Source of the DNA: Gonapodya prolifera JEL478
Lineage: Eukaryota > Monoblepharomycota > Monoblepharidomycetes > Monoblepharidales > Gonapodyaceae
Direction: 5' to 3'
Assembly (NCBI GenBank): GCA_001574975.1
Contig: KQ965834.1
Location: 114,105 to 178,104, forward strand
DNA length: 64,000 nucleotides
Within the stretch, counting starts at the first letter, position 1, and each line of letters opens with the position of its first letter. The translations under genes and the position numbers were made by a program. Shown in pieces: positions 5,901-46,946 of this stretch. The notes beneath the pieces were generated by a model. The model searched no databases. It was given only the letters and a program-made list of their open reading frames with translations, and was not told where the DNA came from.

Positions 5901-5985
5901 GACTGCCGTGGAAGATGACGTGCCGACAGTTGTTGTTCAGATACCGGAACACTCGAATGGGATTGGGAATGAGAGTTCGAGGTGA
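2917..5985 (+). CDS. GH9-like endoglucanase relative, membrane-anchored, probably inactive
   Basis: Five exons (2917-3149, 3332-3526, 3657-4557, 4634-4828, 4906-5985) give 867 aa. An N-terminal hydrophobic signal (LPFLLLPCLAVLGFCVSG) leads into a GH9 (alpha/alpha)6 domain: LSGGLADGGTYLKNTFSVAHA, a TAYLLKTIAQLPLIYVQVGD stretch, YLLGNNPSGITYVTG, LRGALVAGPDGRDGWMDERAAW and QAGYTSAVAYLLA. A transmembrane helix (about 574-598, ending IWNKRRK) and a Ser/Pro/Gly-rich cytoplasmic tail of about 270 aa follow. GH9 enzymes cut beta-1,4-glucan. Here the DAGD motif reads ADGGT, so the usual catalytic base Asp is Thr103; the acid Glu before the AGF/AGY motif is Gln508; and HHR reads SHR. Hydrolysis is therefore doubtful, and a glucan-binding or wall-sensing role is inference. 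Many N-glycosylation sites fit secretion. Confidence 0.85.
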
Positions 5986-6446: not shown

Positions 6447-8817
6447 TCACTCCTCACCATTCCCCTCCAAAACCGCCCTCACATCATCCACGCGCACCAG
6501 ATCCTCCAAAAACCCAATCAGGTCCGTCAACTCGGTATCGTTCTGGTCATTGAACCACGACGTGATCGGGATCGCGTTGGTCGGGTGGAACGCGTACGAG
6601 GCGGGCGCGTTGTCGATGATGAGTGTGGCGCGCAGGTCCCGGCCGAGCATGGAGAGGTCCTGCGGCGGTGGAAGGGCGGTAGAGCACAAGGGGAGTGACA
6701 TAATGTGAGCCGAGATAAACAAATTTACACACTCAAAAACGGATCACGGATGCGCACCTTGACGTAGCTCCCCTTATGATGTATGCACGCCTCCCGAAAG
6801 AGGCGGTGTTTGACGACGTGGCTTCGATCCAAGATGTCCATGAGTGGGTCGGCGTACTACGTGATGGGAGGTGAGGAGAAGGGAGAGGGGAGAGGTGGAG
6901 GGAGAAAACGTGGTTGCGTGAGCCGTGGTTTTTTGAAGGAAAGACCTTCATGAGTTTCGATGGATCCTTAACACACTTCGACCCGTCACAGAAACAACTT
7001 GCCCGTTCTTCTTTCCCCATTTCCCATTCCCCAAACCCACTCCTAAAATCCCATTCAACTCCCGGGCCCCCTGCCCCCCCCACCCCCACGCAACCCACCT
7101 TCGCCAAACTAGCCGTAAACACCACGACCTCAAACAGCTCCCCGCACCGTCTGAGGAACGCGTCGACCCCGGGCCGTTTGAGGACGTACACAGTGTGTGA
7201 GACGTTGTCGATCTCGACGGGCACGATGAAGTCGGGGTGTGGGATCGGCTGGGGGGGAGGGATGCGGGGACGGGGAGGGTTGGGTGGTTGGTTGTACGAG
7301 TACGGAACGACGTCAGTGTAAGTGGCTCGGTCGGCTGGTGAACCAGGTGTCTCAAGACACTTCCACGCGTCAATCTCGACTCCGTTCTCCTGACATGAAT
7401 TCTCACACGCGGCGCGGTCTTCTGCTCCTTTTCCTTTCACTGACCTCCCCTTCCCCTCCATCCCCTTCCCCTCCATCCCCTCCCAACCCCACCCCACCCC
7501 CGCTCTCTCCCCCCAGCACCCACCTTAAACGAACTATGCACCAACGTCTCGTCCAAATCCAGCACCAAGCACTTCTTTCCCGCGTCTTCCGGTGCAAGGG
7601 GGGTTAGGAGGGTGGCCTTCATGCCCTTTCGCGCGGTCGTTTGGACCCGAGGGCCTGTTCCTGCACCTGTTCCTGCGGGGGAACTTTTTTGCCCATGCGC
7701 CGCTCCACCGCCACCAGCCAACACGGCGGCCGCCTTGGACGCATTGCGCGGTCGAGGAGGTCCGCCGCCACCTCCACCTGCGCCGGTGGACGCGGGAGGG
7801 CCTCGACCGGGTCCTGTCGGTTGTGGCGCAGAGTCCGACGTGCAGGAGGCAAAAATGGAGATGAGGGATGAGAGTAAGGATGGCGGCACGTGCGATGATT
7901 TTGAGGAAGCCGATGAAGGGGAAGAGGTATGCGGTAAAGGCGCAGAAGGCCGAGAGGGGGATGTCGTTGCGGTGGCGGGGAGGGCTTGAATGAAACGATT
8001 GAAAGAGAGTCATTTCAAATGTCCTCTGGTCAGCCAATGCAACCTTGCCTCCAAGGCCCTCTCGATAATCCTGGCACCGTTACGAGCTCAGTTGGCGCAG
8101 TGGAAACACACCTTTGGCTTGGCCTCCTCCTCCTCCTCCTGGCATACCGCCACCGCCGCCACGCGCTTGGTCCGACCTTCCCTTTCCTCCGACTTGAGAT
8201 CTATCGCCGACGCGTTTCGTGGCGGGACGAGCCGCCTGTGCATCGTCTTGCGACACCTGGGTCATGAGCGCCGCAAGCGGATTGGAGTCGTCCGCGGAGG
8301 CGGAGGAGGAGTCTGACGTGGAACTGGACTGTTGGCGGGGGCGGCGCGATGCTGATGTGCCCGGCGGGGTACTGGAGGGCGGGTTGGAGGAGAGGGGAGA
8401 CTGCTGCTGTTTGCGTTTCGCAGTCGATTGAGAGGGGGCGCCGGCAGGTCTGGCAGAAACTGAAGAGTTGGAAGAGGAGGTGGTGGACGAGGCTGGGCGG
8501 CCAGCTGATGTCGAGGGTGGTCGGGTTGTTGCGAGGGGAACGGGGGACGCAGGAGCGGCATTTGGGTTTGAGAGGAGAATGGGACCAGGTCGTTCCGTCG
8601 GCGGGCGGGACACGGAGTTGAGTCCAAATGGAACGACGATTTGTTTCTGTTGCGGTGCGTTGAACGAGGGTACCTGTGTCGAGAGTAGGGCGGATGCGAG
8701 AATGCGAGGAGGCGGCGCCGAGTTGAGTGTGTTCTGCTTTATTTGAATGGACGATGGGTGGACTGCGCCCTTCGACGGGCTGCGTGCGATCATTGGCGGT
8801 GCGGAGTCCAGCGACAT
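6447..8817 (-). CDS. SCP/Psr-type (NIF domain) protein phosphatase
   Basis: A CTD-like phosphatase of the HAD superfamily; relatives dephosphorylate Ser/Thr on RNA polymerase II or membrane-associated targets (yeast Psr1/Psr2). Exons run 8817-8112, 7984-7524, 7248-7099, 6856-6758 and 6659-6447, all in phase, giving 542 aa. The first 350 or so residues are Ser/Pro/Gly-rich and disordered. The catalytic domain starts at [16 protein letters not shown], with the DxDxT nucleophile motif, and continues [47 protein letters not shown] and [20 protein letters not shown] to the C-terminus. Exon 3 length (50 codons) and exon 4 (33 codons) match the family without gaps. No Psr-style N-terminal Cys pair is seen, so the location in the cell is open. 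The start at 8817 is the first ATG of the long open frame. Confidence 0.88.
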
Positions 8818-14969: not shown

Positions 14970-16693
14970 ATGCTCTCGCTGGCAAAGGCTCTTGTGGGGC
15001 TCGCTGTCCTCGCAGCCAATCTCAACCCGTCGAGTGGAGCCAGCATCGACTCCCTCACGTCATGTCTCAACTCCCTCCCCGGCACAGTCGAGCTCTACAC
15101 CTCTGGAAGCTCCCAGTATGAGGAATACAGAGACGGCGAACGCGTCCGGCTGGAACGGTATCCGGCCGTCATATTCTTCGCTGCAAGCGTCGAGCAGGTC
15201 CAGGGAGCAGTCAAGTGCGCGTCTTCGACTGGATACAATGTCGTGCCGAGGAGTGGGGGCCATTCGTGAGTGCTCGCTGGGGTCGTCCGTCGTCCGCATT
15301 GTCTTGGCGAGATGCACACCTGACTCTTCTTTGTCTTGGCAAAAGATACGAAAACTTGGGCTCGCTGGACGGGCAATTATTACTTGACATTTCCACTCTC
15401 AACAATGTCACCGTTGATGTCGCTTCCAGTACGGCGACGGTGGGTGCCGGAATCCGCTTAGGCAACTTGTACGTCGCCTTAGACAAATTCGGATTCACAT
15501 TCACGGGTGGAGTTTGCCCAAGCGTAGGGCTTGGCGGGCATATGGGCGCAGGTGGATTTGGGTTCTTGGCGCGCAAGTGGGGACTGATTGCGGACAACGT
15601 TTTGTCGGCCACTGTGGTGGACACATCCGGCAATTTACTGTCGGTCGATTCCACAAACCACCCCGACTTGTTCTGGGCTATTCGAGGAGGCGGTGGTGGA
15701 AGCTACGCCATCGTTGTCGAGGTCCGACTCCGTGTCTTCCCCGAACCACCGGTCAACACCATCGTCGTCGCTTCCTGGGACAACTACACGGTCGGGAAGG
15801 ACGCCATCGCGCGATTCCAGGCCTTCGCGCCAAACACCACGGAGAACCTCGCCTCACAAATCCTCCTCGGCTTTGGCTCAATCACATTCCTCGGCCGGTA
15901 CCTTGGCCCTCAATCCGAACTCGAAACCCTCCTCCAGCAATCCGGTCTTCTCAGCGTCGGCAACGCCACCGTCACGTACCAGAACTGCACCTCGCTCGGC
16001 GCCCAGGCCGCGTTGTGGGACTCGCAGGCGAGCTGCCAGAACCTGGACGCTCTCACCACGCCCACACGCCTCGCCGCCACCAACCGCGAAAACGCAAAGG
16101 CCAAGAGCGAGTACGTCACAACGCTCCTCCCCGACGCAGCACTGCAAGCACTCGTCGACCGCGCCACCGCCATTCCAAACAACTTTGGGTTCATCGAGCT
16201 GGCCGCCCACGGAGGGTTCCTCGACACCGTCGCCCCCAACGCCACGGCGTTCCCGCACCGCAAGGGCACGCTGATGCTGATCCAGTACGTCATCTTTTTC
16301 GACCTGGGCACCATCGAACCCATGAACTCGACGCGATACGGTTGGATCAACGACACCGAGAAGGCCCTCGCGCCCTACGTCAGCGGGGCGCACTACCAGG
16401 GCTACGCGGACCTCGACGTGGATCCACAGACCTACTTCGCCGGGAACTGGGAGCGGTTGACGATTGTTAAGGGCAACTACGATCCCGTCGGGTTGTTCAG
16501 TAACCCACAAACACCGGGAGCGGAGGTGGTACCCACCGCGGGACAGGGAGCACCAAAGGGCCCGAACGGAACTACTACAACAACGAAGAGCGGGCAGCCG
16601 TCGGCAGCACAACCTAACGTCTCGACGGGATGGACAGTTTCTTTCGCAGCCACGCTTTTTGCGGCCGTCTTGACTTTTGCGTTTGCTGGGTGA
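14970..16693 (+). CDS. Secreted FAD-linked (BBE/VAO-type) oxidase, likely GPI-anchored
   Basis: A flavoprotein oxidase of the vanillyl-alcohol oxidase/berberine-bridge family, which oxidises sugars, phenols or alkaloids with O2. Two exons (14970-15265, 15346-16693) give 547 aa. A signal peptide (MLSLAKALVGLAVLAANLNP) is followed by the PP-loop PRSGGHSYENLGSLDG, whose His is the usual covalent FAD site, and GGVCPSVGLGGHMGAGGFG, whose Cys is the second covalent site, so bicovalent FAD is expected. The C-terminal part has the usual NWERLTIVKGNYDPVGLFSN. A Thr/Ser/Pro stretch and a hydrophobic tail (FAATLFAAVLTFAFAG) then suggest a GPI signal. An ATG further upstream (14844) is in frame, but 14970 puts the signal peptide first. 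The substrate cannot be told. Confidence 0.9.
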
Positions 16694-19114: not shown

Positions 19115-20564
19115 GCTTCAGCTTTGAGCGTGGACGGACAATTGCCCTGTCTTGCCCTTGAACAGACCCACGTCGCAAGAAGTCGGCCGACGTACCTCGA
19201 CCCCGAACAGCACCAATCAGCGCGCCCATCGCTACAGCCGAGAGAACGTGTGCCGAGTGCATTGGCTTGAAAGACTTCTACCGGACATGCCCCTCCGAAA
19301 ATGCATGTAAGCAAGGTACTCCGACAAGGTGTCGCCAGCTCATGCCTTCGCTGGCGCTCCGCACTAGATGCAATTCAAAATGCGTAGCCTAATCGATCGA
19401 AACTAATGTATTATGAAATGATTGTCGTACCATTGCAGTATTTCTGATGAACCAACAATAAGAAAGTGGCGAGTTTCGGTAGAACAGCAGTACTTGACAC
19501 TCAATTGATTCCAGAAACGAATTCGCATTTGGAGTCCATGGGATTCGGAGTCCAGAAAAAGCAAAACTAGCAAAACTACAGCACCCAGTATTCCCAGCTG
19601 ATCTCTCACGCTAGTACTGACTGGGCTGTCACGGGCTTCGCTGCGCTGATCGGACGGGAAGCGGCACTTTTCCGTGCATATGGCCGTAGCTATTAGTACA
19701 TCGCAATTTATAAAATATAAAGTTTCAGTAACAATAACGAAAACGACAACATCTACATGAACAAGATTTTGAACATTCCGTGAAGTAATAAAGTCACCAT
19801 TTTTAATAAATAAGACGAAAATTTGGACGAGAAAGGATCCCAAGGGTGTTGACTTTTGTCCAACTGAACTTCGGAAGGGCCAATGCACCTGACGTTGGAT
19901 CTGACTGTGTGAGACGTGGAGACGGGGTAGAGATGTGATACGAAAAGGTCGAACAAATGTGTACCCCCCGGAGTGTTAGAAGCTATATGACTGCGACGCT
20001 CAAAACGCCAATTTAATAATTTGTTGCACTTCAATGCGGAATGTGGCGTGTGAGCTGTGTTGTCGTGTTGCGTGACAATCAATTGTCCTCCTTTCACGAG
20101 CAATCGCCAGCAGAGGACTCGTGCGCCAAGTGACAGGCACAGGCACACTCACGCGAAGTGCACATTGTAGCGTCAGATGTCGCGTCCCACTGAGCTTGCG
20201 CGCATGTGCTCTGTGCGTCCATCTTTGCTTGCATTGGCTCCAACGCCCACCCGGACATTGGGCTTCCGTCATTTGAGCATTAGACCTTGTCCAGGGCGGC
20301 CGCCGTCGCGTTCGCGCATTTAGTTTAGTATTTGCGCTTCTTCCTGTTCCTCGCCCTTGACGTAGTCTCTTCGGATTCCATGTGCAGCTCCCTCAATCGC
20401 TTCTGCTCCCTTTGGCTTGTCTCTGCAACTCTTTCAACTCCTTATCTCCTCTGCCGCTGATACTGCCGTCAAGTCAAGACGCTCCGTCGGGTACCAATTA
20501 TTCCATGCTCCAACGTTTTTTATTGAGATATTGCCATGGAGAGCTCCAATATCATTTCTAATAT
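19115..20564. other. AT-richer intergenic stretch
   Basis: Nothing coding recognised. A local hairpin-capable run (GCCAGC near 19335 and GCTGGC near 19350) is the only structure noted. Confidence 0.4.
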
Positions 20565-27180: not shown

Positions 27181-27548
27181 AATGACTTTTTGGATTGTGG
27201 CGGTTTATCCGTCAAGCGCTCAAGACAGCGCAAAATCTGAAGCCACAGCGGGTGTTAAGATATTGCGTTCAACAATATAGCGATGGTCAGTCTTCTCTGG
27301 AGAGATCATTTGATCCGCGACCTCCCATTGTGATCCGCAAAAAATGGTAACAGTTTTGCAGGTTACTTACTTTGAGACATGAAAACCAGAATATATAGGA
27401 AGCTCAGGAGGCGCAGGACATTTTTCACCTACAAGGAACATATTTACTAAGCAACCGTGCTCGCGATCATTTGATTTGGCACAGGTAAGACCTACGGCGA
27501 AGTGCAAGACAGTCCGAAATCATACATGATTCATATTCTCTATGAATT
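27181..27548. other. Upstream side of P450 remnant, nothing clear
   Basis: Where the P450 N-terminal half would be expected; no P450 motif found in any frame. Confidence 0.4.
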
Positions 27549-28478
27549 CTATCCACTCTTCCCCTCTCGAGTTATTCGCCGCTGCTTGACATCCCAGTTG
27601 TAAACTCGAGCGATGTCTGGAAGTAAAGTAGTCAGAGTAGTGAGCCAACATTTCAAAACGAAAAAGTCGATCATCCGCGGTTCTCTCCATTCTGCTGTCC
27701 CGGAGTGTTACGGGAGCAGGACTGCGGATCATATACTCACTAACTTCCATTGTCGTGATTTGCTCTCGCAAGAACTCCAGGTCCTCGATAGTGACTTTGA
27801 GAGAGTTCTGGGCCGTCGAAAGTTTCTCGTTCAGCAGGGTGTGCGCCTCCGTGACGGGGTACTCCACCATCAGGTTCGCCTGCAGGTGGCATGAAGAGAA
27901 ATGTCCAGGACCGTAACGACGGTGCCTTTGCAAGGGATGGAATCCGCAACTCACGCCGAGCCACAGGTACACAACCTCACTCTTTGAGATTTTTGCGTGG
28001 GCCCATAGCGTGTCGTTCAGCTCGTAGGTCACGTCGAGGGGTTCGTCTGGTGACGGTGCGTCCTCTTCTTCCGGGTCCGCGTTGTGGTTCGGGGAGCTCC
28101 GCGCCTGAAGGAAGTCGACCATTTCCAGAGTTTTCTTCAGTTCGGGGATTTTATCGTCCAGAGACCGCCGCTTGCGGACCAATTGGTCCTCCATGAACTT
28201 AAACTTCCTTTTGGCGATGTCCCGCAATGAAAAGCTTCAGCCATGCCACGAAAACGAAAGGCGGAGCGCTCACTCACTCGATCATTTCGGCAAACTTGCG
28301 CAGAGTGGGTTCCACCTCCTCTTGCGAGTGGACGAACTCCTCAACTTTTGACTGTCAAACGGAAGGGAATTCGTGGCACAGCTGAGCAATCAGGACCGGT
28401 CCACTAACGTAGCAGGAAGAAACTCACGACGAAAGGCGCCTGCGGGATTCCGCGAGGATTCGATTGAAGCTCTGTCAT
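27549..28478 (-). CDS. PAC10: Prefoldin subunit 3 (VBP1/Pac10)
   Basis: Alpha-type subunit of the hexameric prefoldin cochaperone that passes nascent actin and tubulin to CCT in the cytosol. Five exons in phase (28478-28428, 28351-28278, 28207-27955, 27879-27741, 27616-27549) give 194 aa, the usual size. Family marks: NPRGIPQAPF at the N-terminus, VEEFVHSQEEVEPTLRKFAEM, EKFKFMEDQLVRKRRSLDDK, IPELKKTLEMVDFL,  ELNDTLWAHAKISKSEVVYL followed by WLGANLMVEYPVTEAHTLL, EDLEFLREQITTMEVNIARV and YNWDVKQRR. Both coiled-coil arms and the beta hairpins are therefore present. The gene is divergent from uL14m, 612 bp away. Confidence 0.93.
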
Positions 28479-30042: not shown

Positions 30043-31020
30043 AGCAAAACCCCAAAAGGAAGACTGCACCCGTCTTCCAAATATCTCGATTCTTCAGCTG
30101 CGTGGGTCTCCATCAATCTCAAGCCGGGACTACCTCCCGCTTGATGTAACCACCATCCTGCACATGCTCGACACGTTTGTGTCGCTGCGCGAAGCGAGAT
30201 TTGTCGGATGCCTCCCGTCGGGAAGGTCGTTCGTTGACAATGTGGATCCGGATCGCGTTGCAATGTGGGCGGAACGGGGCCTGCGATTTCTGGACCTTTC
30301 CGACAGCGCGAAGACCACAGAAAGCAACGCGAAGGGACCCGTGAGGGGGGAACAACCGCAGGTCCCTCTTGCATGGAACTGTGTTTTCATCGAACCACCT
30401 TTGAGGCAGTATCGTGACTGGGTGCACCATCTCCCCGATTACTCGCCTATCCACTCTTATGCAATGACTGCGACGAGGCGGCAGTGAGCTCGTGGGCTGT
30501 TCGTTCTCCATGCTATTTCTGCCAGATTGATGAGGTGAGCCTCCATTGTGAGATAGATGATGCGGACAGCGACACAGAAGACAATCACAGGAATGACACT
30601 CATTTAAAGTTCTGCGATTTTTGCAGAGTCACGCGCATTCAATCTTGTCAGCCTTGTCGCCTCGCAGCAGGCTGGATTCGATGCTCTATGTGGGGACATT
30701 GTGAAGGCGATTGCAGCATCTTGTGCATCAAACCATGTGGCGCGTGTGGAGAACCTGCCTTCATATGTCCAGATCACCCCAATTGCGAGTGTGATCTGCG
30801 TTGCTCCAAACGTAACAAGTTAGAGCTTTGTGGCTTGTGTTACGCATCACCCTTCTGTACTTACTGCTTCCCCGAACACCCTGAAATGGAGCCTATCGTG
30901 GTGTGTGTCAGATGTAATCACACCGCATGCGCGAACTGTGTCACCAAGCTTGGAAATGAGGCATGCCGAAAATCGATGTGCTGGGAATGCCACGGTTTAT
31001 GCATCGGGGATGGTACATGA
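30043..31020 (+). pseudogene. LRR protein with Cys-rich zinc-ribbon tail, one frame break
   Basis: The first part, after an acceptor-like CCAAAAG near 30058, reads LRR text: CTRLPNISILQLRGSPSISS, ILHMLDTFVSLREARFVGCL and WAERGLRFLDLSD. Near 30435 the frame must change by one base to enter CNDCDEAAVSSW and a Cys/His-rich domain with many paired cysteines: CYFCQID, FCDFCRV, CQPC, CGACGEPAFICPDHPNC, CGLCYASPFCTYC, CVRCNHTACANC and CWECHGLC, ending at 31020. The spacing suggests several zinc ribbons or RING/B-box-like modules. The break could be an error or a short unrecognised intron. A protein-interaction or ubiquitin-pathway role is only inference. Confidence 0.5.
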
Positions 31021-31218: not shown

Positions 31219-31226
31219 CCACGTCA
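31219..31226 (-). promoter_or_regulatory. Possible UPR element upstream of BiP
   Basis: The minus strand reads TGACGTGG, the XBP1/ATF6-type unfolded-protein-response core, about 250 bp before the BiP start. A CACGTGGC also lies at 31388-31395. Whether this fungus uses such a site is inference. Confidence 0.35.
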
Positions 31227-31476: not shown

Positions 31477-34213
<2,737 letters not shown>

Positions 34214-34299
34214 ACTTTGTACCTGAACTCTAATTCTTTATATGTACATTTGCATCTCCAATATGAATCGTACCACATCGACACCTTGGACTGACCATG

Positions 34300-37200
34300 T
34301 TATTTTCCATTGCCCAAGGTTAACTTATTGATTATTCCTGCTGCAATTGTCACACCATCATGCCGCAGTGTAAACCGTCCGAGCTCCTTCGAGTCCTTGA
34401 ACGACTCCACGCACATTGGTCGATCCACTTTCACTTCCACCGTCGCCATTGCGTTCTTGGGTATACGCCTTGGCTTCTTCTGCCCAGTCTCCCCTGTTGC
34501 TTTGTCCACGACGGCGACGAGCTTTGATATTGTCGCCTGTTCAGATGAACTTTGGTGATGAAGTATGGTGCGGAACCCCGCTGTAATGGGTATGGGCGTA
34601 TCGAACACGACAATCTGTGCCAGAAACTTGGAGACGACAGGAACAGGGTTCACAGCATCACACAGAACGTGTCCGACGCTAATTTCGTCGCATCGAGGAG
34701 TTTAGCAAGTGCGAAGCGTTCGTAACAGACAACATGCAACTCATACCTCAGTTGAGTCAAATCGACGCCCGACAAACTAAGTACGACGTTATCTCCCGCC
34801 GCCGCCCAATCCACAGTTTCTTCCCCGACATTAATCGCTATAGATACAAGCAATTAGCGAGGCGTTTCACATTTATAAAACCATCAAGACCACCCGCATT
34901 TGACCGTCGTGTGTGCATTGTTTGGCATACCCAAAACCGGTTGGCCCACTTGGACATGTCCCGACAGAATCCGGCCCGTCACGAATACGGCGGATCCAAA
35001 CGAGCTCTTGAACACGTCCACAATAGAGAGGCGGAATGGCTTATCCACCGGTCGCGGGGGAATATCAAAGCGGTTCAAAAGCTCCAAGAATGTTGGCCCG
35101 GTGTACCAGGAGGAGAGAACGGGATTGGTTCGGGTTTGAACGTTTTCGCCGGTGTAACCTTTGCATTAAGAATGCTGTTATTGCGAAAACCCTTTTTCCA
35201 GGCGCCAACTAATCCTCTACTCACCGCTACAAGGGACGAAGGAGATCCTTGACTTAGCGAACCCAGCCTGAATCAAGAACGGTTCGAGCACCTTCACAAC
35301 ATGTTCGTACCGATCTTGAGACCACTCTTCCTAACAACAGGAGCAGTCTCAGCATCATGACCGTGTTTCACCTTCTGCATATGTGTACCCACCGCATCGA
35401 GTTTGTTAACGCACACCAGGATCTGCGACACGCCCAAACTTCGCACCAGCAAGACATGCTCCCTCGTCTGCCCGCCCTGCTGGAAACCCGTTTCGAATTC
35501 GCCCCGGATAGCGTCCACGACAAGAACAGCTACATCTGCCTGTAGCAAACTCCATTCAATCTGGGACTGAGCTTGAAACCCAACCCTTCCCACGAACCCA
35601 CCTGAGCCGCCCCAGACAACATTTTAGGGACAAAATCCTTGTGCCCCGGCGCGTCCAACAGGGTAAATCTTCTCCGCTCCGTCTCGAACCCACGCACGGC
35701 AACGTCCGTTGTTACGCCCCGCGCCCGCTCTTCCCCGTCCTCATCAAGCACCCAGGCGTACGCAAACGATGATTTTCCTGCGAGCGAAGAGTCGCGGGTA
35801 TGTTTTTGGAAGGTTTTAGGGTCCACTTCACCGCTGTTTGGTGGGTCAAGTCTGGGGCGGCTCAACTTTAAAGTCAATCACAAGAAATGGGACTCACGTA
35901 AGCACCAACACATGTCCCATCAACGTCGACTTCCCCGCATCCACATGTCCCACAACAACGACCGACAAGTGGTCCTTATGGTTTTTATCGGTGCTCCGTT
36001 TGGCCAGTTCCTTGGGGACGTCCAGGCGGCGAAATGATTTGGCAGGTGGTGGGGCGGGTTGGGGGGAGGGCTGATCTGGAGTAGACTTAACTGCAGACAC
36101 TGCTAAGGAGGGTACCGGGTTGTGTTGCGGGGCAGAGCGGGTTTGAAGACCCATGGCGGCAAGGTCCGAAGCAAGAGGGTCGTCCGAGGAGTTTTGCTGG
36201 TTTTTTGACACCGCAGGCGCTTTGAAGGAAGAGGGTTTGGCATGGGCGGTGTTCCCTTTCACTGGAACAGGCTCCGTTGCAGAAGGAGCGGTTGGTCGAG
36301 GTGGCGCGTGCTGTACCGGTTTAATTGTGGTCGCTATAAGCGAGCAAAAGAAGAGCGTAATGAGTCCCAACTCCTTCTCAAACCCCCGCCACCATCATCT
36401 AACCGACCGCCTCCAATGGCGACCGTTTTCCTCGTTCCCGTCCTGGCGGCCTCCACGACGTTGTCCCTGCTCAGTTCCGTAAATTCAAACACCTTGATGC
36501 CATCTGGAAGCTCTGTGAGTCCCGCGACGGGAGCGACGACCACCGAGTGCAGGAGCGAGTGAGGTAGGGGAGTGGGTGAAGTGGGTTCGGAGAGGAAAAG
36601 GGCGAAGGGGGACGCGGAGGTGAGGAGGGGTGCTGAGTCAAGAAGAGTGGACGTAGAGGCGGTGGGAATGGGGTCCGGGTTGGGAAGGCGTTGTGAGGTG
36701 GGAGGTACCGTTCGTCCAAGGTTTTTAGCAGGGCCAATGGCAGGAAGGGAAACGGCAGGGGACCCAGAACCGCCGAGTGCTCCTTTCGCAGCTGCAATTT
36801 CCTTCAGTGATTGGCCGGTGGCAGCAGCACCCGCGCCGAGCTTCAGGCCACCTGGGCCGATGTTGATGCTCGGTTTGCCACCTCGACCCAGCGACGACCC
36901 AGAGAGGGGTTGTGCAGGAGCGAGAAGCGGTGATTTTCCAATGGGCGCAAGGAGGGATTGCCCAAGAGGTCGAGGAGCGAGGAGGTTCGGTTTCGCGGGT
37001 GGGAGGAGTAAGTGTTTTGTTGGTGCGAGTGATGGAAATGGTGTGGAAGTGGGTGCTTGACGAGTGTCGCGTGTGAAGAAAGAAGGATGAAGGCACTTCG
37101 TTGAAGTCGTCAAAGTCCTATGCGTGGGAGGTCGGTCCCTTCCGCTCTGAAGAAGCGCCATTTTGTGCCAGAGTTGCCACTTCTCCCCCTTCACCGGTAT

Positions 37201-37711
37201 CAACCCCATTGGTCGTGCATTCCACCACTGCCCGCTCACTTTCACCAGCTATGCTCACCTTTCGTAACCGCGGGAAACGGTGTTCGAGCAGGTTGTGGCA
37301 CTTTTTTCTTCTCACTGGAATGTTGGTCGAGAAGATCGTTCACCGCAGCATCGACGTCCCAGTCATGAGTTTCCAGTGCATGTCGAATTGTGTAGTCTGA
37401 TGCGTGAAAGCCAAGGACTGCCTTCACATCCCGGATGGCTGCAGAGTTCAAGAAATAGTAGTTGGTTGAACTCGCCCACACCGACACTGCGAGTAATCCG
37501 AAACGCACCTTGCTGCGCTTCCCGCTCATACTGGTCATCGTCATCGTCTTCTTCGAAGAAGTCGTCGTCGTCGTCGTACGCTGCCCAACGTTCGAGTTGC
37601 GATCGATCGAGTCAAACACGCATGCATGACGCCGGGTCGTCCTCCACTGCTCCACGTAAACTGCTCACCGCCAGACTTGATTTCGCTTTTCAGCAAGCGA
37701 TGCCGAGACAT
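34300..37711 (-). CDS. HBS1: Hbs1 translational GTPase (ribosome rescue)
   Basis: eRF3-like GTPase that with Dom34/Pelota frees stalled ribosomes in no-go and non-stop decay. Multi-exon on minus. The N-terminus [14 protein letters not shown], an acidic [14 protein letters not shown] segment after the first intron, and the Hbs1_N domain ([34 protein letters not shown]; about 37.45-37.30 kb) come first, then a Pro/Ser-rich linker. The GTPase domain has GHVDAGKST (P-loop, near 35.93 kb), [17 protein letters not shown] (switch II, near 35.64 kb) and VCVNKLDAV (about 35.4 kb). Domains II and III follow, including [30 protein letters not shown] and the closing [17 protein letters not shown]. The gene ends 87 bp from the BiP stop (convergent). 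Confidence 0.92.
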
Positions 37712-38022
37712 GGGAAATGGAAACGATTTCTCTCGTCTGGATTCAACGATTTGGATGCAATTCTGGACCAAAGTTTTTTCCGAAAATCGAAAGCCCGTAT
37801 CACCGTGGAAAGAATCGATTCACCTTCCATTGCTACCTGACCGACTGTTCGCGCCTAGCACTGAGAAAAACGCGTACTGTCTACCAATTGGTATGTACAG
37901 GTTCCCCACTTACCGCGGTGTCCTTATGTACCTTGCCTCAAGCCTGCCACACCTTTTCCAGTTCCTTTCGTTTGCGCTCCCTAACTCCTTTCATCATCGG
38001 TTGGAAGTGAACTTGCGGATTA

Positions 38023-41000
38023 ATGTTGACTGTCGCCAAGCCGGTCAAGCCTCTCGAGGATTACCCTTGGTTTCTAAGATCAGAAGTGGTCAAGTGTCCT
38101 GACATCCAGATTGGCAAAGGGGGTTACAGCAAAGTTTATCTGGGAGAACTCCGCGGTATGTCTCGCGCGGCCGTCAAGATCTTAAACCCACAGGAATGTA
38201 GTCCCGGCATCTCTTTAAACAGGGAAACGTTCATCCGTGAAATCGAGACATGGTGGAGGATGAAAAGCCACCCGAACGTTTGTCCAGTCTACTCTGCCGG
38301 AATTATGACCTGGAAATGGGACGGAAGGGAGTCTGAATGCTTCTTTATCGCAGCGAAGTATATGAAGAATGGAAACTGCACAGAATACGCCAAGGGCAAG
38401 CCTCTCGAAGTCAAACTGAAACTTGCAGGTATGCTGTCTGTTTTTGTTGGGAGTTCACGATGACACTCATACTTCCGATCATGCATCCACAGCTCCGCGA
38501 GGTGGCAGTTGGAATAGCACATCTCCACGAGCAGAACTTCGTTCACGCAGATTTGAAGCCCGACAACACGTTAGTTGATGATAGCGGATGTGCACTTGTC
38601 GTTGACTTCGGCGCCGCGAAGACGGATAACTTTGATGAGACGATTGGCAATCGCGCTGGAACGTTGTCATACATAACCCCGGAACGATTTGAGGAGGGCG
38701 CTGTTACAAGGGAAGCTGGAGATATCTTTGCGTTTGCGATATCCATGTACTCGGTGAGATTGAAAATGATTATTGGTTCTCAATGCAAACTCATCTCAGA
38801 CAACTTTTCGAGACAGATATTTTCTGAAGGGCGGTCATATGGTAGCAAGATACCAGTCAGGTACTGGATGCCATTGGCAAGGGGGAACGTCCCGATATAT
38901 CGCGCTTGAGACGTATTCCGGAGGAGGCCTTGAATCTTTGCGTGAGTGGCAAGGACGATGCTATTTGCCTGATCAACTAATGAATCTCGTGCGAAGGGTA
39001 ACCTACAGTGCTAGCGAGAGCAACCAATCGCAGAGTCAGAGTGGGTATAACATGCTTTGATTTTCTTTGGTTTCTCTTCATCTCATTCTCATACCTTGCA
39101 ACGTCATTCTGTTGTCTATGTACCATTTTACAGACGAAAGTACACCAAAGCAGAATTGGTTTTCCGACGAATCCATTGTCGAGGAGTTCCAGAACTCGCC
39201 ACTGGACCACGAGTGCTATGCAAATCTCGTAAGCTGGACACTTCGCGCAATGTAGGGATTAAGTCATTTCTTCAGTGTGAACAAGTGTATGCTGACCTGG
39301 TGTACCACACATTACAATTGTCTTGCACAGTCAAAGTTACACCCCAAGTGATAGGAAGGAGCTCCAACTACACGTGGGTGATGAAGGTGAGTGAACATGG
39401 TTTGCGAATGTTGCAATGTCTTCAGGAATATTCTTGCTTTGCAGTGGTTTTGAAGAATTGGGGCAACAAAGAAGCAAGTTCCTCGGGAGAAATCTCAGAA
39501 CAAACAAGCTTGCCTCGATTCCATCACCTGTTGGAATGCTGGACCTTATCATACCCACTGCGCTTCTCCCTTATTCCCTGAACAAGAGCTTTCACATTTT
39601 CATGGAGAGTTTGTGTACCTTTCACCTTTGACCAACAAGATGACTCCTGTACTAACTTGACATCTGAGCTTAGAGGTTTGCTTAACTGACAGCGACATCG
39701 AAAAAATGGAGGAAATTCTCACCGGACGTTCTGATGTAACGCATCTATGGATGAGAAGTGAGATATTCTTCCCTTTCCATATTGACTCAGACTCAACCAT
39801 CTCGTGATACAAGGTATAGACTTGGCGCCAATGCTCGAACGTTTGGCACCACTGCTAGCTGACTGTACAGATCTGATGACTTTCGACATCTCTAGTGCGA
39901 CCATTTTCAGATGGGTGTGTTTGAAAATGTCGACGCTGATAAGTTCACCCAAGAAGGAAGCAAACCAGGACCTGATGGTGCAAAATTCATTTCGGATCCT
40001 TTAAAATGCACCAATTGTTTGGAAAAACTAAATCTTGCAGGTATTGTGCATTTGCGTTACTCTCACTCACTTCAGTGCTGCGTGTACGTATCATTGAAAG
40101 TGGAGTTGCTAATGGCTTGCGGACGACTATTTAATTCAACAGATAATCCCCTTGGCAAGTCTGGGTTTGTGATTCTGGCCGAATGCCTCATTTCTTTCCA
40201 AAACCTCCAGAAACTCAATTTGAGAGGTCAGTTGGAGTCAGTTCGTACAAGGAGGAGGATTAAATATGAAACGTTTTTTTGTGTTCTTTCTGTTTAGATG
40301 TGGGACTTGTAGATGTGGGACTTGTTGCTTTTGCCGGCCCAATACAAAAGATGAAGAGTTTGATACACTTTGACCTAAGCAGTGGGTGAAAAGGCTTCAA
40401 CAGGCCGTGACGTTGTTGAGTGACCTTCGTTGTCTCATTTCGGAAAATGGTTACTTGAACAGACAACTCGATTGGACCTGACGGAGCAAATGCAATTGGT
40501 GAAGTGATCAAAGGCCTCTGCAACTTCACGAAATTGTATCTCTTTGGTCAGCAAAATTGGCAGTGATGACGTATCGTGACTTGGCGACTCATTTGGCAAC
40601 ACATGTGCGTGAACAGGCAACTCAATTGGAGATGAAGGAGCAAAGCCGTTGGTGAAGGGCTCAAGGCCCTGATTAACTTTAAGACGTTGGATCTCTCGTG
40701 TAAGCGGAGTTGTCGGCGTTGTCATCAAGCGACCTTCCTTGTCTCATTTGGTAATATGGTTGCTTGAACAGTCAACTCAATTGGAGCTGAGGGAGCAAAG
40801 GCAATTGGCAAAGGGCTGAAGGGTCTGACAAACTTATTGACATTAGATATCTCATGGGAGCTGAACTGTGGGTGATGGCGTCAAGTGATCTTCCGTGTCT
40901 TATTTGGGCTTGATTCCATTCGTGATGACGGAGCTGGTGAAGGTCAAGGCCTTGACCAACGTCACGGCGCTGCATCTCTCGGGTGAGTTAAATTGCCAGA

Positions 41001-41727
41001 GATGGTGACATTTGGTGTCTCAATTGGCAATATGGTTGCTCCAACAGGGAATGAAATCGGACCCGATGGAGCACAGGTAATTGGAGAAGGGTTTAAGACC
41101 TTGACCAACTTGACGACGTTAGATCTCGCGTGTGAGCTGAATTGTCGGTGATTTTATTAAGTAACCTTCAGTGTCTCATTTGTGAACATGGGTTACTTGA
41201 ACAGGGAACTCAATCCTACCCGACGGAGCAAAGGCCATCGGTGAAGGACTCAATGACCTCGCCAGCCTCATGACGTTACATCTTTTGGGTGAGCCGAATC
41301 GGTGGTGATGTCGTCGAGTGCTCTCCCTTGTCTCATCTGGGAAGTTGGTGGTTTGAACAGGAAACGCAATTGGAGATGACGAGCAAATTCCGTTGGAGAA
41401 GCGCTCAAGGGCTTGACCAACATGACGCATTTAGATCTTTGTGGTGAGCTGCATTGGTGGTGACGGCGTCAAGTGACTCAGTACTCATTTCGGAACATGG
41501 TTGCTTGAAAGACAACTCAATTGGAGATGACAGAGCAACGGCTATCAGCGAAGGGCTCAAAACAGACACCAAACTTGCGGTGTTAGATCTCTCAGGTGAG
41601 CCAAATTGTTGGTGATAGCATCGAGTCACTCATAATTTGGGGACAATGTCGAATAGACAACCCCATCAGTGACGAGGGAAAGCAGTTGTTTCGCAACACC
41701 TTCAAAATCGAAGGTCTGGATGTGTAG
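38023..41727 (+). CDS. Protein kinase followed by LRR array
   Basis: The N-terminal part is a complete-looking kinase N-lobe and core: IGKGGYSKVYLGEL (Gly loop), AVKILN (Lys), FIREIETWWRMKSHPNVCPV (Glu helix), FVHADLKPDNTLV (HxD loop), VDFGAAK (DFG) and AGTLSYITPERFEEGA (activation and APE region), then DAIGKGERPDISRLRRIPEE after at least one intron. From about 39.3 kb the text becomes LRR-like (LEKLNLAG, FQNLQKLNLR), passing into about nine near-identical LRR exon-intron cassettes and ending NPISDEGKQLF...LDV at 41725-41727. Whether kinase and LRRs are one transcript is inferred from the plus-strand run of compatible exons. At least two LRR exons (40.62 and 41.36 kb) have lost a base, so the tail may be decaying. 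It could be an immune-type or signalling receptor kinase, but no membrane segment was seen. Confidence 0.6.
40140..41727 (+). repeat. Tandem LRR exon-intron cassettes, about 150 bp each
   Basis: Acceptor sites with an almost constant GAACAG or CAACAG ending recur at about 40142, 40461, 40615, 40768, 41047, 41200, 41358, 41510 and 41653. Each is followed by an exon of about 85 nt coding the form NSIGxDGAxAIGEGLKxLTN and a donor GTGAG. The introns are alike too (TGTCTCATTTG...GGTTGCTTGAACAG). A degenerate unit sits near 40920. Confidence 0.85.
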
Positions 41728-42180
41728 GCTCGGTTGAGAAATGAATTTTATTTATGTTATATTCCGCCGGGCTGAGTACATATTTGGTACAAGAAAACTG
41801 GACTGCGTCTCAGCATATTAGATAAACTCTCGGTGCCAATGAGCGTCCAGTCCTGGTTCGCCCACCCGAGTCAAAGCTTGCATTTATCGCCTTCTGCTTT
41901 ACATAACTTTCTCTCACTGCATTCCACTTTTTGTCATCCAGATAAATTCCACTGGCATGCATGACATTCACATTCACGTTGAATCAATAATTTGCCATCC
42001 TCTACAATAAAATAAACAGAATAACAATAATTACATAATAGCGCGAAAGCCAAATGTTGTGCCACGTGTGAACAACGTCACGGTCCTGCCGAAATCGCCA
42101 TTCTTCACGATCCATTTCCACATTACGAATGCCACTGCAGGATGGTAGTCTCCCCGTTGGCGTCCAGCGCCGAAACTATA
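41728..42180. other. Intergenic between convergent genes
   Basis: AT-rich 3' flanks; no feature seen. Confidence 0.5.
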
Positions 42181-43272
42181 CTAACACGACTTCCTCCCGA
42201 CGATCACTGCGCTATTGCTCAAATCGCGCTCTCCAGCGCCTGTTTGACCGATTGCCGGCAGATTGGTTGACGATTCACTCCCACTCCCGCCCGAGCTGTA
42301 CAGACTGCCACATGAAGGCATTGAGCGAGGTGGAAGACCGTTCGCCGATGGAGCGGGGATGCTTGAAGATTTCACGATCCCCCGAAGACCTCCTCCCCCA
42401 TACCGCACGGTGGTTTTTGCAGTCACGGCTACATGCGCAAAGTACTCAGAGTAGTTGACGGCAGGAAGAACGTGGCGAAGGTGCGGGTTAAAGAGCAGGA
42501 CTGGGTGAGGCGTGGTGGGAGAGACATCGTAGGGGACGGAACAGGCGCCAAGGGACGCGACCGAGGGATCCCGGCTTGTTGAAAAGGAAAAAGCCGAGCG
42601 TGAAGTTGGAATGCGGGGTGAAGCAGTTCGGAGAGGTGAAGGGGAAGTGGGAGTGGTTGGTGAACGGGTCAGAATTGGTGATGACGCGTTCGTTATGTGG
42701 ATTGTTTTGGCGCGGTGGAGAGGGGAAACTCTGTCGGTCCAAGAAAATTCCTTCTCCCGAGTCTTTTCACTGAGCGATGTTGCAATTCGATGTGGTTTTG
42801 GTGCAATCGGTCTCCGAACAGGGGAGGGTTCCATTCCGGGCTGTTCTGTACTGCCAGCCAAGGCTTCCTCCATTGCTCGACTGCCTCCCGAGGGACAAAA
42901 ACCGCGTTGTAATGACGCAAGCGACTCGTTGCCACTTAAATCGTCGACACTCGCGTGATCGGAAACGAGCTTCCTAATCAGGTCTAATGTGGACGACACC
43001 CGGCCACCACCGTCCATGCCAAGGAGCACCCGCTGCCAATTCTGGCACGCGCGAGAAACAGCCACCAGGGCTGCAATGGTTGCCAATCCGCACAAAAGTG
43101 CCGCCAGAGCCACGAAGACCGCGACGGGGTGCATCTCCGGTTGAGGCGGGGGTTGAGTCACCGCCACGAGATCGTCGGCAGATCCGTCAGCAGATGCGGA
43201 GGAAATCATGAAGAAGGTGGCCGCCAGTGCGGGAGTGAGAAGGCGTCTGCTGCTCATCTGGTGGGCGCTCAA
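42181..43272 (-). CDS. Single-pass membrane protein, Ser/Pro-rich, unknown
   Basis: One uninterrupted exon of 363 aa, unlike its intron-rich neighbours. A signal peptide is likely (MSSRRLLTPALAATFFMISS from the second Met at 43257, which may be the true start). A short Pro-rich luminal part (VTQPPPQPEMHP), one transmembrane helix (VFVALAALLCGLATIAALVA) and a cytoplasmic tail of about 280 aa rich in Ser, Pro and Thr with several SPxR/TSPSP motifs that could be phosphorylated follow. Near the C-terminus a tidier block (VNYSEYFAHVAVTAKTTVRY) may fold. I do not recognise the family. The layout recalls fungal wall-stress sensors, but no WSC or Cys-rich head is present. Confidence 0.75.
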   Translation of the reverse strand: MSAHQMSSRRLLTPALAATFFMISSASADGSADDLVAVTQPPPQPEMHPVAVFVALAALLCGLATIAALVAVSRACQNWQRVLLGMDGGGRVSSTLDLIRKLVSDHASVDDLSGNESLASLQRGFCPSGGSRAMEEALAGSTEQPGMEPSPVRRPIAPKPHRIATSLSEKTREKEFSWTDRVSPLHRAKTIHITNASSPILTRSPTTPTSPSPLRTASPRIPTSRSAFSFSTSRDPSVASLGACSVPYDVSPTTPHPVLLFNPHLRHVLPAVNYSEYFAHVAVTAKTTVRYGGGGLRGIVKSSSIPAPSANGLPPRSMPSCGSLYSSGGSGSESSTNLPAIGQTGAGERDLSNSAVIVGRKSC

Positions 43273-44845
43273 AGGATGAATTGAGGAGACAAATGGGTCG
43301 TGTCAAAAACGAGGGGTATGGTGAGGCGCCTGTCAACCTAGAATGGCTTTTCCGCAAAGCACTGCCCTGGCAACATAAATCAATTTTACTCTGAATGGAA
43401 GGTAGTCTCGGGGTACTGCTGATATGTGATACTACGTACATACAAGTTGACACTTCATCTCAGTACTGGTGGGGACCTTCACCAAAAGTGATTATAATGC
43501 GTCCCTTCCCAATTCCCGCAATTACTTCGTAGAAACTGCCCAGGCTGTAGAGCGCCTTTCACTTTTACTGCTCGTCTCGCCCCTCTTCCCCAATCTCTCG
43601 AACGTTTCAAGCGTCCTGCTCCCGATCAACGCGTCGGTTTCCGCTCAGACGATATCCACAATGGCTAACGACGCTAAGCAAGGGCAATAATGTAGAAGAA
43701 GGTTTTCAGCTGCGGGCAATTCGAGAGCGTGAAAGCGAGCTTGCGTCCTCCCGGGCCAACGTTGAGTTTTCATTTGGTTTGCGCGCGACAGTGACAATGG
43801 TTGCGTCATTGGCTAGAAGCTCTGATTTCAAGATATATCAAGTACATATGGTCCGAGTGGTTGAGAAGCGACGAGAGTCCGATTCGAAGGTGGGCGAGGG
43901 AAGGTTTCGTTAGCGCTTGCGATGCTGTTCAGAGAGCTTTAAACATGCGTCATGCGTCTGAGGGAAGACCAACGACACGTCATTGACGGTAACAAAGGTC
44001 TCCTCGTTGGAGGACGGTCATTTCTCCTCTGCATAGAGCGCCATGTAAGATTGTACACAAGTGCACGGAAGGTTCAAGATTGCAAGCAGTTCATCGACGT
44101 AGGTGAGGCGTCTCGCGTGGAAGGCAGTCCGCTTTCTGACCCGACTTGTCGTACTAGGCCATTGTTGAGGAAAATGACCATTCCTTCCCATTCTGCTGTA
44201 CCCGGGTCCCTTTTTACCGTTCCCTTCTTTCCCTTTGATCTAGCACGGCCATCTTGTGCCCGGAAATGCACTTGCAACGACTGTGCGGTGTAGTTTGAGC
44301 TGCGGCGTGTCGGATAAGATGCAGTTGCACTTGAACCCAAGATCATTTCTGATGAGCGCCGCACAAACCACGTAAACACATCTAAAATCGAACTTGTATT
44401 ATTTCACCAAAAAGACTTGACTTCAAGAAAACCTGTAGTGCGCCAAAAGGGGGCAAAACTTCAAATTCCTTGGTTGAAACAATTGCTTCTTTTTGCATTA
44501 TTTCAGTGGCCAAAAAGCCACGTTATAGATACCCGAAAAGCTCGGTCGCAGGAAACAGTTTCGTTTATTTTCATTACCCCTAGCGCAGAGGTGAGACGAG
44601 ACGTGAGATTGTGAGTGACCAAAGCTGCTACTGCAATTCTCTCGTTTTTTTATTTTCTGAGTGAATCGCGTTCATCACTGCACCGGCGCCACGTCGCATT
44701 CCTTCAATCCTTTTCGTCCACGTCACCGATCTGGTGAATCCGTGGAGGTGCTGGCAATGGGAGCTCGATCGCCAACAAACCCAAATCAATCCCCAATTCT
44801 TCCAAAGAAAAAAAGCGACGAGCTTCTTGCAGATATTAATCGATT
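43273..44845. other. Long intergenic stretch
   Basis: Scattered short frames only. A tRNA-like phrase near 43852 was considered and rejected. The promoter of the second Hsp70 must lie at its right end. Confidence 0.4.
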
Positions 44846-46946
44846 ATGGGACTTGCACGCTCGCACAGGCGACTGAAACTATCTGGAACGACCTTGTACT
44901 TTGCACGTGGCCTTGGTTTCTTCGTCGCCCTCCTGCTTTTCTCATGCGGAAGTGTGAGCTCTTCATACCATCGTAAACCCGAAGGTTCCATAGTCGGTTC
45001 GTATATCGAGTGGAGGAGTGTAGAACATCTCGGATCGTGGTGTTCTGATCGGACTTGGTTGGTCGATGAACGCAGGCATTGATTTTGGTTCAACACAAAC
45101 CCGCGTCGGTACGGTCTGAATGATCTCAGTAGAGGCGACGTGTACACTAACGTTCGTTCGCATTCAAGGACTCTGCCAGTCGGGGTGCAAGAACATTTCT
45201 ATTCTCAAAGTTGACACAACGGAGGTAGGTAGACGTCGCATTTCCAGTTCTCAATGACGCCTTTGTGATGGTAACTTAACGCAGAACCGTGCTTGGAATG
45301 TGGACAGACTGGGCCGAGCTGATCCTGACACAGAAGAATCCGTTTTCAATCAGACAGTACGCGCCTTTGAAAGGGTGAAAGAAGCTGCGAAATCCAACTG
45401 GCAGCTTAATGTTACTCATGCGGTGAGCGCATTTGACTTGTTGTGATGGAATCAATACAATGCGATATGTCTTTTCGAGATCAGGTGGTTACAGTCCCCG
45501 CATACTTCACGGATAATCAACGACAGAAAATAAAAATTGCTGGCCAATGTGCTGGTGTGCAAGGTACTTTACTTTCACGCTAGAAACTGCAAGTCGTGGG
45601 TGATGTAACATGGAACATCTTCAGTGGAACGGATCATTAATGCCCCTACCGCAACATCTATCGCGTACGAGCTTGATAAGCACTACGGAAACGAGAAGAG
45701 TGAGCATTGATAGTCATATGCGCTCGGTTTTGACCACTCAAAGGTTTGGTAACGCGCACATCAGTTCTGGTGATCGATTTTGGTGTTGGTCTCGATCTGA
45801 CCATCTTGGAAATCGACGACGGAGTATTCGAACTTATTGCGACAGCTAAAAATCACTCTATTGGTGGTGATACGGTCACTCTCTCTCTCGTGGACCTCTT
45901 CCTTCAGGAGGTAATCGCTGCCCCTGCTTGACGAATTCATCACGCGATTTTATAACACACTCCCCCTGCAGCTTACCACACACAAACTTTTCGATTCCGA
46001 CCAAACTGCAGCTGTCGATCCTGAAATACTGTCCCGACTATGGACGGCCGCTGAAGCAGCCAAGCACAATCTCTCACATAAGCCTACCATACTAGTTGAA
46101 ATCCCGTCCTTGTTCGACGGGGAGGACTTTCGTTTGTCTGTGACGCGGGATGTCTTCGAGGACCGTCTCAAACCCCTCTTGGAGCAGTTCGTCACTGAGA
46201 TTGAGGAAATAGTACTACATGAGGCGAACATCACCCGCGCCGAAGTTCATTCGGTGGTACTTACTGGCGGGTCAACGCGGATACCAAAGGTGGTGGAAGT
46301 AGTTCAAGAAGTTTTCGGCAAGGGTAGAAAAATCAAAAACTCGATAGATCCAGATGAAGCCGTCGGTGAGTGCGTACAAGGCGGGAGTACAGTATTGATA
46401 ATCTCACCGTACAAGCATTGGTCTAGTCCGTGGAGCGGCCATTCAAGGCAGCATAGTGTCAGGGACTGACAAAGATTTTATATCATTGTGCGGATGTGGT
46501 CAGAAGAATTTTTTTACGGAAGTTTTTGACGTTGGTAAATGTCACATATGTAATGCTGACGTTCTGATTCGGTCACTTTCGGAAATGAAGATCTCTGAAA
46601 TGAATGAAGAACGAGACAAAGATCTGCTGGAACGGTTCGTGGACTCTCCTCCGCGTCTACCACCTGCAGACCTTCGATCTGTGGCGCACGAGGTCCATTC
46701 ATCGTCTGGGACGTCACCACAAACCTCGGTGGACGTCACCGCGGATCTAAAACATGGTCGCGAAGTCTCCCCTCAGTCACATCGTGCTATGGTTCCCAAA
46801 GGAAAAGTCATAACCCATGATCTGTTGCCGCCAAAGCCAGCAGGGGAGGTGATCGCGCCGAATCGGAGTGAGTGATGAACGGTATTTGCGCTTTGGATGG
46901 CAGTGCCCTCTAACGAATACTGTTCGTACCCATAGACGAGCTGTAA
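44846..46946 (+). CDS. Divergent ER Hsp70 (BiP paralog) with replaced C-terminal domain
   Basis: Ten exons (44846-44996, 45076-45108, 45169-45224, 45285-45422, 45485-45563, 45625-45699, 45765-45910, 45972-46365, 46427-46867, 46936-46946) join without a stop to 507 aa. A signal peptide (LGFFVALLLFSCGSVSS) and the phosphate-1 strand GIDFGSTQTRVGLCQSG are kept. So are [30 protein letters not shown] and [20 protein letters not shown]. Changes from BiP: about 60 residues of lobe I are missing, DLGGGTFD reads DFGVGLDL, and after AIQGSIVSGTDKD the substrate-binding domain is replaced by an unrelated Cys-bearing, then Pro/Ser-rich tail of about 130 aa. Exons 2, 5 and 6 have exactly BiP's lengths (33, 79, 75 nt). 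The final intron splits the Asn codon of a C-terminal RNEL, which fits the [KRHQSA]-[DENQ]-E-L retrieval rule. ATP hydrolysis is doubtful; a regulatory or co-chaperone role in the ER is inference. Confidence 0.8.

Follow-up and report, generated by a model that had tools for sequence, protein, structure and literature searches.

What might a fungus do with a second BiP that appears to have lost both its catalysis and its client-binding half? This question is raised by a stretch of 64,000 nucleotides (nt) from contig KQ965834.1 of Gonapodya prolifera JEL478 (hereafter the window, whose coordinates are used throughout), in which an Hsp70-like gene, here called the paralogue, lies at 44846-46946 on the + strand, downstream of an intact BiP gene. 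There is strong evidence in the sequence that the paralogue is an intron-bearing, anciently duplicated copy of BiP, and we think a regulatory or decoy role more likely for its product than chaperone work. Our preferred explanation, which we hold tentatively, is that of a hydrolysis-dead, 'NBD-only' Hsp70 targeted to the endoplasmic reticulum (ER), which would compete with BiP for J-proteins or for other partners of the nucleotide-binding domain (NBD).

The gene model itself is exactly that of an earlier note made from the letters of this DNA: one gene of ten exons and 507 amino acids (aa), without internal stop, starting at 44846 and with its stop codon ending at 46946, whose nine introns are all GT-AG and 60-79 nt long. 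The Pfam HSP70 model (PF00012) matches residues 108-375 at 248.3 bits (cut-off 20.6; E=1.6e-73), and all 12 NCBIfam models listed fall short of their own cut-offs. The exons, together with the BiP gene, are as follows; catalytic sites here and below carry Hsc70 numbering, and SBD stands for substrate-binding domain.

44846..44996 (+): exon 1, with the start codon, a hydrophobic signal-peptide-like core and EGSIVG; intron 1 has the place and phase of that in BiP
45076..45108 (+): exon 2, 33 nt as in BiP, with the phosphate-1 loop GIDFGSTQTRVG
45169..45224 (+): exon 3, the remaining first strands of subdomain IA, with C64 and C68; its end phase is unlike that of BiP intron 3
45285..45422 (+): exon 4, 176 nt below its BiP equivalent, without subdomain IB and the catalytic Lys (K71) in it
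45485..45563 (+): exon 5, 79 nt as in BiP; subdomain IA
45625..45699 (+): exon 6, 75 nt as in BiP, with VERIINAPTAT; E175 has become Ala159, and R155, N158 and T161 are retained
45765..45910 (+): exon 7, the altered phosphate-2 loop DFGVG-LDL with an in-frame Thr deletion, and the acidic J-domain contacts E193, D196 and E200
45972..46365 (+): exon 8, encoding subdomain IIB together with the adenosine motif
46427..46867 (+): exon 9, the NBD end (RGAAIQGSIVSG, Q364) and then a new tail replacing the SBD, with the Cys pattern CxC-x14-CxxC
46936..46946 (+): exon 10, 11 nt, finishing ..RNEL and the stop; it matches the 11-nt HDEL exon of BiP
31477..34213 (+): the intact BiP gene, assembled by hand from 12 exons that encode 666 aa and end in HDEL; parent or sister of the paralogue

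Where did the paralogue come from? Its intron phases (1,1,0,0,1,1,0,1,1), set beside those of BiP (1,1,1,0,1,1,0,1,2,1,1), correspond such that eight of its nine introns are BiP introns in both place and phase, the exception being the phase of intron 3; BiP introns 9 and 10, which lie in the SBD, are unmatched in the paralogue. Exons 2, 5 and 6 are of equal length in the two genes, and exons 3 and 4 together comprise 371 nt in BiP versus 194 nt in the paralogue (1 and 176 nt shorter, net -177 nt), a shortfall that totals 59 codons and therefore keeps the reading frame. In addition, the last intron cuts the same codon in both genes, before the terminal EL (H-D-E-L in BiP, R-N-E-L in the paralogue). 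Shared introns and this identically split codon therefore point to a duplicate of BiP made at the DNA level, and counter the two other origins considered, a retrocopy or an unrelated Hsp70. The two genes are 10.6 kb apart (34213 to 44846; the earlier estimate was 11 kb), the window BiP has BiP chain 6asy as its best PDB match (E 2.7e-270), and in the NBD region 140 of 320 aligned residues are identical between it and the paralogue. An unrooted tree of five sequences sets the pair apart from PDB BiP, HSPA2 and HSPA1A (99/93), and the branch of the paralogue is very long (3.06); owing to that branch, the five sequences and the lack of a true outgroup, the tree is weak alone. Where the two BiPs differ, matches run 24 versus 12, which we counted toward the paralogue's origin. 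It is on the introns, location, terminal exon, tree and these matches that the proposed descent from BiP rests.

Could such a protein still hydrolyse ATP? The largest lesion is in lobe I, where between anchors the 84 BiP residues covering subdomain IB are represented by 21 in the paralogue; the 59 codons lost according to exon lengths agree with the loss of about 60 residues claimed previously. The 84 and 21 residues intervene between two anchored blocks and were left unaligned, so the zero aligned count for IB is by construction, and MAFFT instead distributes the paralogue's short stretch across the gap. With IB spanning Hsc70 residues 40-115, the deletion takes out this subdomain together with catalytic K71. 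Outside it, identities with BiP are 54/100 aligned residues in IA, 54/118 in IIA and 24/78 in IIB. The hydrolysis residues are lost, the K71 region being absent, E175 replaced by Ala159 and T204 deleted, and G202 is also changed to Val; the phosphate-2 loop had indeed been described as altered, and what it lacks is the Thr of GGGTFD, with one Gly now Val. Retained are D10, T14, D199, D206, E268, K271, S275, G338, G339, S340, R342 and D366, and the adenosine-side GGSTRIPKV is where it was said to be. The combination of NBD signature motifs and intact catalytic residues that marks the Hsp70 superfamily is thus lacking in the paralogue, with the adenosine motif intact. According to PMC9691929 (papers are given by PMC number and drawn on from excerpts), K71A-type mutants bind ATP without hydrolysing it and those of the T229G type lose 95% or more of activity, as cited there. 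Because the counterparts of K71 and T204 are both gone, plus that of E175, ATP hydrolysis is very unlikely, and we would put high confidence in the prediction that the paralogue does without it; with the adenosine and Mg side kept, it may hold nucleotide without hydrolysis.

Would it reach the ER? The N-terminus has a hydrophobic GLGFFVALLLF, and the signal peptide proposed earlier is upheld as a signal-peptide-like start of about BiP's strength (2.62 versus 2.60) by Kyte-Doolittle hydropathy only. The terminal RNEL conforms to the PROSITE pattern [KRHQSA][DENQ]EL. From residue 40, the presumed mature protein carries six N-glycosylation sequons (shuffle mean 2.35, P 0.018), and BiP carries none (expected mean 2.45). 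We infer that the paralogue enters the ER lumen, and the residue losses, the signal-like start and the KDEL-type end together lend good support to the view of it as a non-catalytic ER protein. The shared introns, the separate RNEL exon, the Ala in place of E175 and the sequons are additions to what the earlier note described.

What replaces the SBD is a tail of 133 aa (residues 375-507), with four cysteines at 379, 381, 396 and 399 (CxC-x14-CxxC); it had been called Cys-bearing and Pro/Ser-rich, and the richness is moderate (13 Ser and 11 Pro among the 133 residues). Past the presumed signal cleavage at about residue 40, the paralogue has seven cysteines and BiP two. The SBD-beta and SBD-alpha that follow a VLLLDV-type linker in BiP/Kar2 are absent, the Pfam match ending at 375. 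The protein of exons 9-10 matches no Pfam model up to E=1, and its single PDB listing (E=3.6) is not significant. The idea of the tail as a decayed SBD found no support (local p 0.199, global p 0.31-0.56 over three gap settings; 2000 shuffles each); a short LRxxAH-like stretch of it does align with the SBD. Its capture from elsewhere in the window fared no better, with tblastn returning the self-match only and blastn two hits put down to chance, 17 and 14 nt long (E 0.33). Pattern matches to exon 9 numbered 2 in viral and 58 in prokaryotic collections, of which tblastn confirmed none, and those to exon 8 in viral contigs numbered 16, again with 0 confirmed; because the collections searched are viral and prokaryotic, these missing relatives say little on eukaryotic orthologues. 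Single-sequence structure prediction of exon 9 gave a mean pLDDT of 40.8, which is uninterpretable.

Is this a living gene, or a dead one? Over 282 aligned codons, the paralogue and BiP share 129 identical residues and differ at 117, 77 and 182 of the first, second and third positions; fourfold sites are saturated, 55 of 74 being different. Nonsynonymous (dN) and synonymous (dS) divergence are 0.48 and 2.85 by NG86, and 0.55 and 3.42 by maximum likelihood, the ratio being rough because dS is saturated. Among 209 columns in which three PDB Hsp70s do not vary, 103 are changed in the paralogue and 21 in the window BiP, so that most amino-acid change sits on the paralogue branch. In simulated neutral decay (K80, kappa 2, 1000 runs per level), the whole coding sequence stays stop-free in 39.8, 10.5, 1.5 and 0.1% of runs at 0.02, 0.05, 0.1 and 0.2 changes per site, and the tail alone in 75.7, 53.4, 29.5 and 10.7%. 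Saturated dS with lower dN, and a frame that has survived open, therefore indicate a gene constrained during most of its history; purifying selection over that time is supported, with the tail alone making a weaker case. The selection argued for in the earlier note thus stands for most of the gene's past (dN 0.48, dS about 2.9, decay simulation), and is less certain for the recent stretch. As for the coding character of the tail, the 146 open codons of exon 9 have a chance of 0.0007-0.0017 given base composition, base periodicity is of coding type (G at 0.36 in first and 0.16 in second positions), and the codon score is highest in the real frame (-0.253, versus -0.36 to -0.54 in the other five), about 1.9 standard deviations (sd) over base shuffles (mean -0.436, sd 0.094). 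The same score is 0.005 for the paralogue core and 0.322 for BiP, which was part of the training set.

Why, then, do we favour competition with BiP? The closest precedent is HSPA13 (STCH), which PMC9691929 describes as SBD-less, responsive to the unfolded protein response (UPR) and bound to the Sec61 translocon and Sec62/Sec63; on overexpression, its ATPase mutants K100A and T230A inhibited import and maturation more than the wild type did, and the authors propose competition at the J-domain face. The paralogue has itself lost the residues matching K100 and T230, and because of this a J-protein competitor is our first choice. The paralogue would enter the ER lumen, may retain nucleotide without hydrolysing it, and would occupy partners of the BiP NBD, among which J-domain proteins like the Sec63-type cofactors of the translocon are the likeliest; BiP would thereby be damped or tuned, as proposed for HSPA13, and the Cys-bearing tail could supply an element that binds partners or is stabilised by disulphides or metal. 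To compare the J-domain face, DnaK positions were placed on the paralogue by way of a presumed DnaK sequence. The eight DnaK-J-domain contacts of PMC8215388 comprise R167, E206, D211, E217 and Q378 in the NBD, L391 in the linker, and P419 and D477 in SBD-beta. All five on the NBD side are present in the paralogue (R155, E193, D196, E200, Q364), and the window BiP has Ser at the E193 position. That the paralogue does compete with BiP for NBD partners we regard as a real possibility somewhat short of an even chance.

Several observations weigh against this reading. Three of the eight DnaK contacts (L391, P419, D477) are gone with the linker and SBD, and J-domain affinity is therefore possibly poor. 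There are further residue changes (T13 to Ser, Y15 to Gln, H227 to Ser, E231 to Asp, R272 to His), and the 103 of 209 changed columns may mean a fold and surface altered beyond what single residues imply. In the KDEL receptor, R169 forms a salt bridge with an Asp at -3 (PMC8248988), which RNEL does not offer, and ER retrieval is therefore possibly weak. The precedent has its own weak points, as the effect of wild-type HSPA13 was lost on an untagged client and pre-emptive quality control persisted in the HSPA13 knockout (PMC9691929). As regards descent, the 33 columns diagnostic between two BiPs and two cytosolic Hsp70s did not discriminate, the paralogue siding with BiP in 7, with the cytosolic proteins in 6 and with neither in 20; moreover, among the best 60 of 115 PDB matches, the top ones are chains of cytosolic Hsp70s, led by the Hsc70 chain 1ba1 (199.3 bits), with the best BiP chain, 6h9u, about 13 bits below (186.5).

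How do other known systems compare? HSPA13 is likewise an ER-directed NBD without SBD (for the paralogue by sequence alone) and is UPR-linked (PMC9691929), but it is an active ATPase with signature motifs kept (PMC9691929, PMC12692333), whereas the paralogue is without IB, K71, E175 and T204 and has the 133-aa Cys-bearing tail ending RNEL. The paralogue is not classed as HSPA13, because an intact ATPase core is lacking, and it probably arose independently of it from the local BiP, given the shared introns and the tree (HSPA13 being likened by description only). With BiP/Kar2 (HSPA5) it shares a signal-like N-terminus, eight of nine introns and a KDEL-type terminal exon, and it differs in having no linker, SBD or IB and in its lost catalytic residues. 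To our knowledge, Ssz1 has neither BiP-type introns nor a KDEL end. This protein also has an atypical NBD, binds nucleotide without ATPase activity and has a J-protein partner, but is a fungal, ribosome-associated, non-ER protein that retains SBD-beta (PMC10687569). HscC and other bacterial Hsp70s with NBD lobe I deletions (DnaK 76-101; PMC8215388) resemble it in that respect, except that they are bacterial, with a smaller deletion and a retained SBD.

A further hint comes from upstream, where the following matches occur to the mammalian consensus of the UPR element (UPRE).

44718..44725 (-): TGACGTGG, about 120 bp ahead of the paralogue start codon
31054..31061 (+): TGACGTGG, upstream of BiP
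31219..31226 (-): TGACGTGG, upstream of BiP

Six motifs were examined upstream of the two genes and TGACGTG was chosen post hoc; three of the six had no match upstream of either gene, TACGTG occurs once upstream of the paralogue and not upstream of BiP, and CCACG six times upstream of each. In the window, TGACGTGG is found 5 times versus 2.59 expected, a count reached by 11 of 100 shuffles, and three of the five sites lie within about 430 bp upstream of BiP or the paralogue; the chance of one lying up to 500 bp upstream of one chosen gene is about 0.04 (a simple proportion, 5 sites in 64 kb). A role as a UPRE-type element is suggestive only. PMC10512342, on anaerobic fungi, leaves the element used by early fungi unsettled in the part consulted.

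Which other explanations deserve attention? The paralogue might be a pseudogene, long selected, lately dead or silent, and with its frame not yet broken. Decay of 0.05 changes per site would still leave 10.5% of simulated runs stop-free, the codon score falls under BiP's with the tail just about 1.9 sd over shuffles, and a decayed-looking repeat array sits between the two genes; such a history has to accommodate a frame open over 507 codons, nine GT-AG introns that are all intact, losses that stay in frame (net 177 nt, and 3 nt in the phosphate-2 loop), an 11-nt exon still encoding a KDEL-type end, and a tail with coding-like periodicity whose codon score peaks in the real frame. We consider it unlikely, and that the paralogue is a real functional gene we hold to be quite probable; this grading, like those for hydrolysis and competition, is a judgement and was not computed. 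Somewhat less probable still is a scaffold, in which the NBD would park the protein on BiP partners while a CxC..CxxC tail performs ER redox or metal chemistry. The motif and the seven mature cysteines (two in BiP) are what commend it, set against a tail without a Pfam match up to E=1 or a significant PDB relative and without relatives that would show Cys conservation, the low pLDDT of exon 9 being uninformative rather than negative.

Two related ideas concern the UPR. On its own, the ATPase domain of BiP binds both Ire1 and Perk, independently of nucleotide, and SBD-less BiP attenuated cellular UPR signalling (PMC4337721); the paralogue, as a natural SBD-less BiP, could thus lastingly occupy the Ire1 luminal domain, with unfolded protein unable to release it in the absence of an SBD. 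The Ire1-binding face on the NBD is not located in the part of PMC4337721 consulted and may fall in the lost IB, and fungal Ire1 may work differently, which leaves this damper doubtful indeed. We would rate lower again a dedicated UPR silencer, a possibly nucleotide-locked NBD sitting on both Ire1 and Sec63-type J-proteins that would set the ER stress threshold and that unfolded protein could not dislodge, because it has no client-binding domain; should the TGACGTGG sites before both genes prove to be genuine UPRE-type elements, such a silencer would form a built-in negative feedback arm. Least probable, and in our view improbable outright, is a BiP nucleotide-exchange factor like Lhs1/GRP170 or Hsp110. 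An ER-directed, probably non-cycling Hsp70 relative would suit the part, but Hsp110/Grp170-type factors grip Hsp70 via the SBD-alpha arm, and Lhs1/GRP170 factors have an extended SBD-beta loop in addition to it; no SBD was detected in the paralogue, which lacks that arm and lobe IB alike. Of the exchange or decoy partner suggested before, it is the decoy that fits better, with HSPA13 as precedent, and exchange that is weakened by the missing SBD and IB.

The window is eukaryotic in character, its introns being short and GT-AG, and HDEL, the GH9 gene and the style of the genes suggest a fungus. Elsewhere in it lie the following.

3604-4608 (+): glycosyl hydrolase family 9 gene (4.6e-37)
4894-5985 (+): after that gene, an open reading frame (ORF) with a membrane-spanning-like and a low-complexity part, no Pfam match
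6733-7524 (-): NIF-type phosphatase piece
15122-16693 (+): flavin adenine dinucleotide-binding, berberine-bridge-type oxidase (PF01565 7.2e-17, PF08031 1.7e-07)
19573-19691 (-): 5S ribosomal RNA gene (RF00001, 91.4 bits); nothing else in the window reaches an Rfam gathering score
21084-21551 (+): fragment of the beta-barrel domain of a Pol polyprotein (PF22936, 1.3e-14), probably left by a Copia-type retrotransposon
27520-28236 (-): prefoldin subunit piece
30418-31020 (+): directly upstream of BiP, an ORF that is Cys-rich and zinc-finger-like by eye, no Pfam match up to E=0.01
38011-38909 (+): protein kinase piece
40434-41621: between BiP and the paralogue, two overlapping families of five degenerate repeats (58 and 124 nt), which look by eye like a leucine-rich-repeat gene in decay (read in frame 1 on both strands), with no 150-aa stop-free stretch and many stops in the frame read per strand

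What would a hydrolysis-dead competitor of BiP mean for the field? Among the matches listed in the open-licence literature, mostly titles and abstract openings, there was no SBD-less or IB-less fungal BiP paralogue, and the excerpted Ascomycota Hsp70 survey PMC3879978 describes none. The surfaces of the BiP NBD that act outside the chaperone cycle, towards J-domains, Ire1 and the translocon, have so far been probed with engineered fragments and ATPase mutants, and the paralogue resembles an evolved counterpart of these, in which hydrolysis, IB and client binding are gone and the nucleotide side, the NBD part of the J-domain face and, probably, ER targeting are kept. If expressed, it would be a BiP whose functions have been separated in nature, and it might mark a second path, independently taken, to a regulator of the HSPA13 kind.
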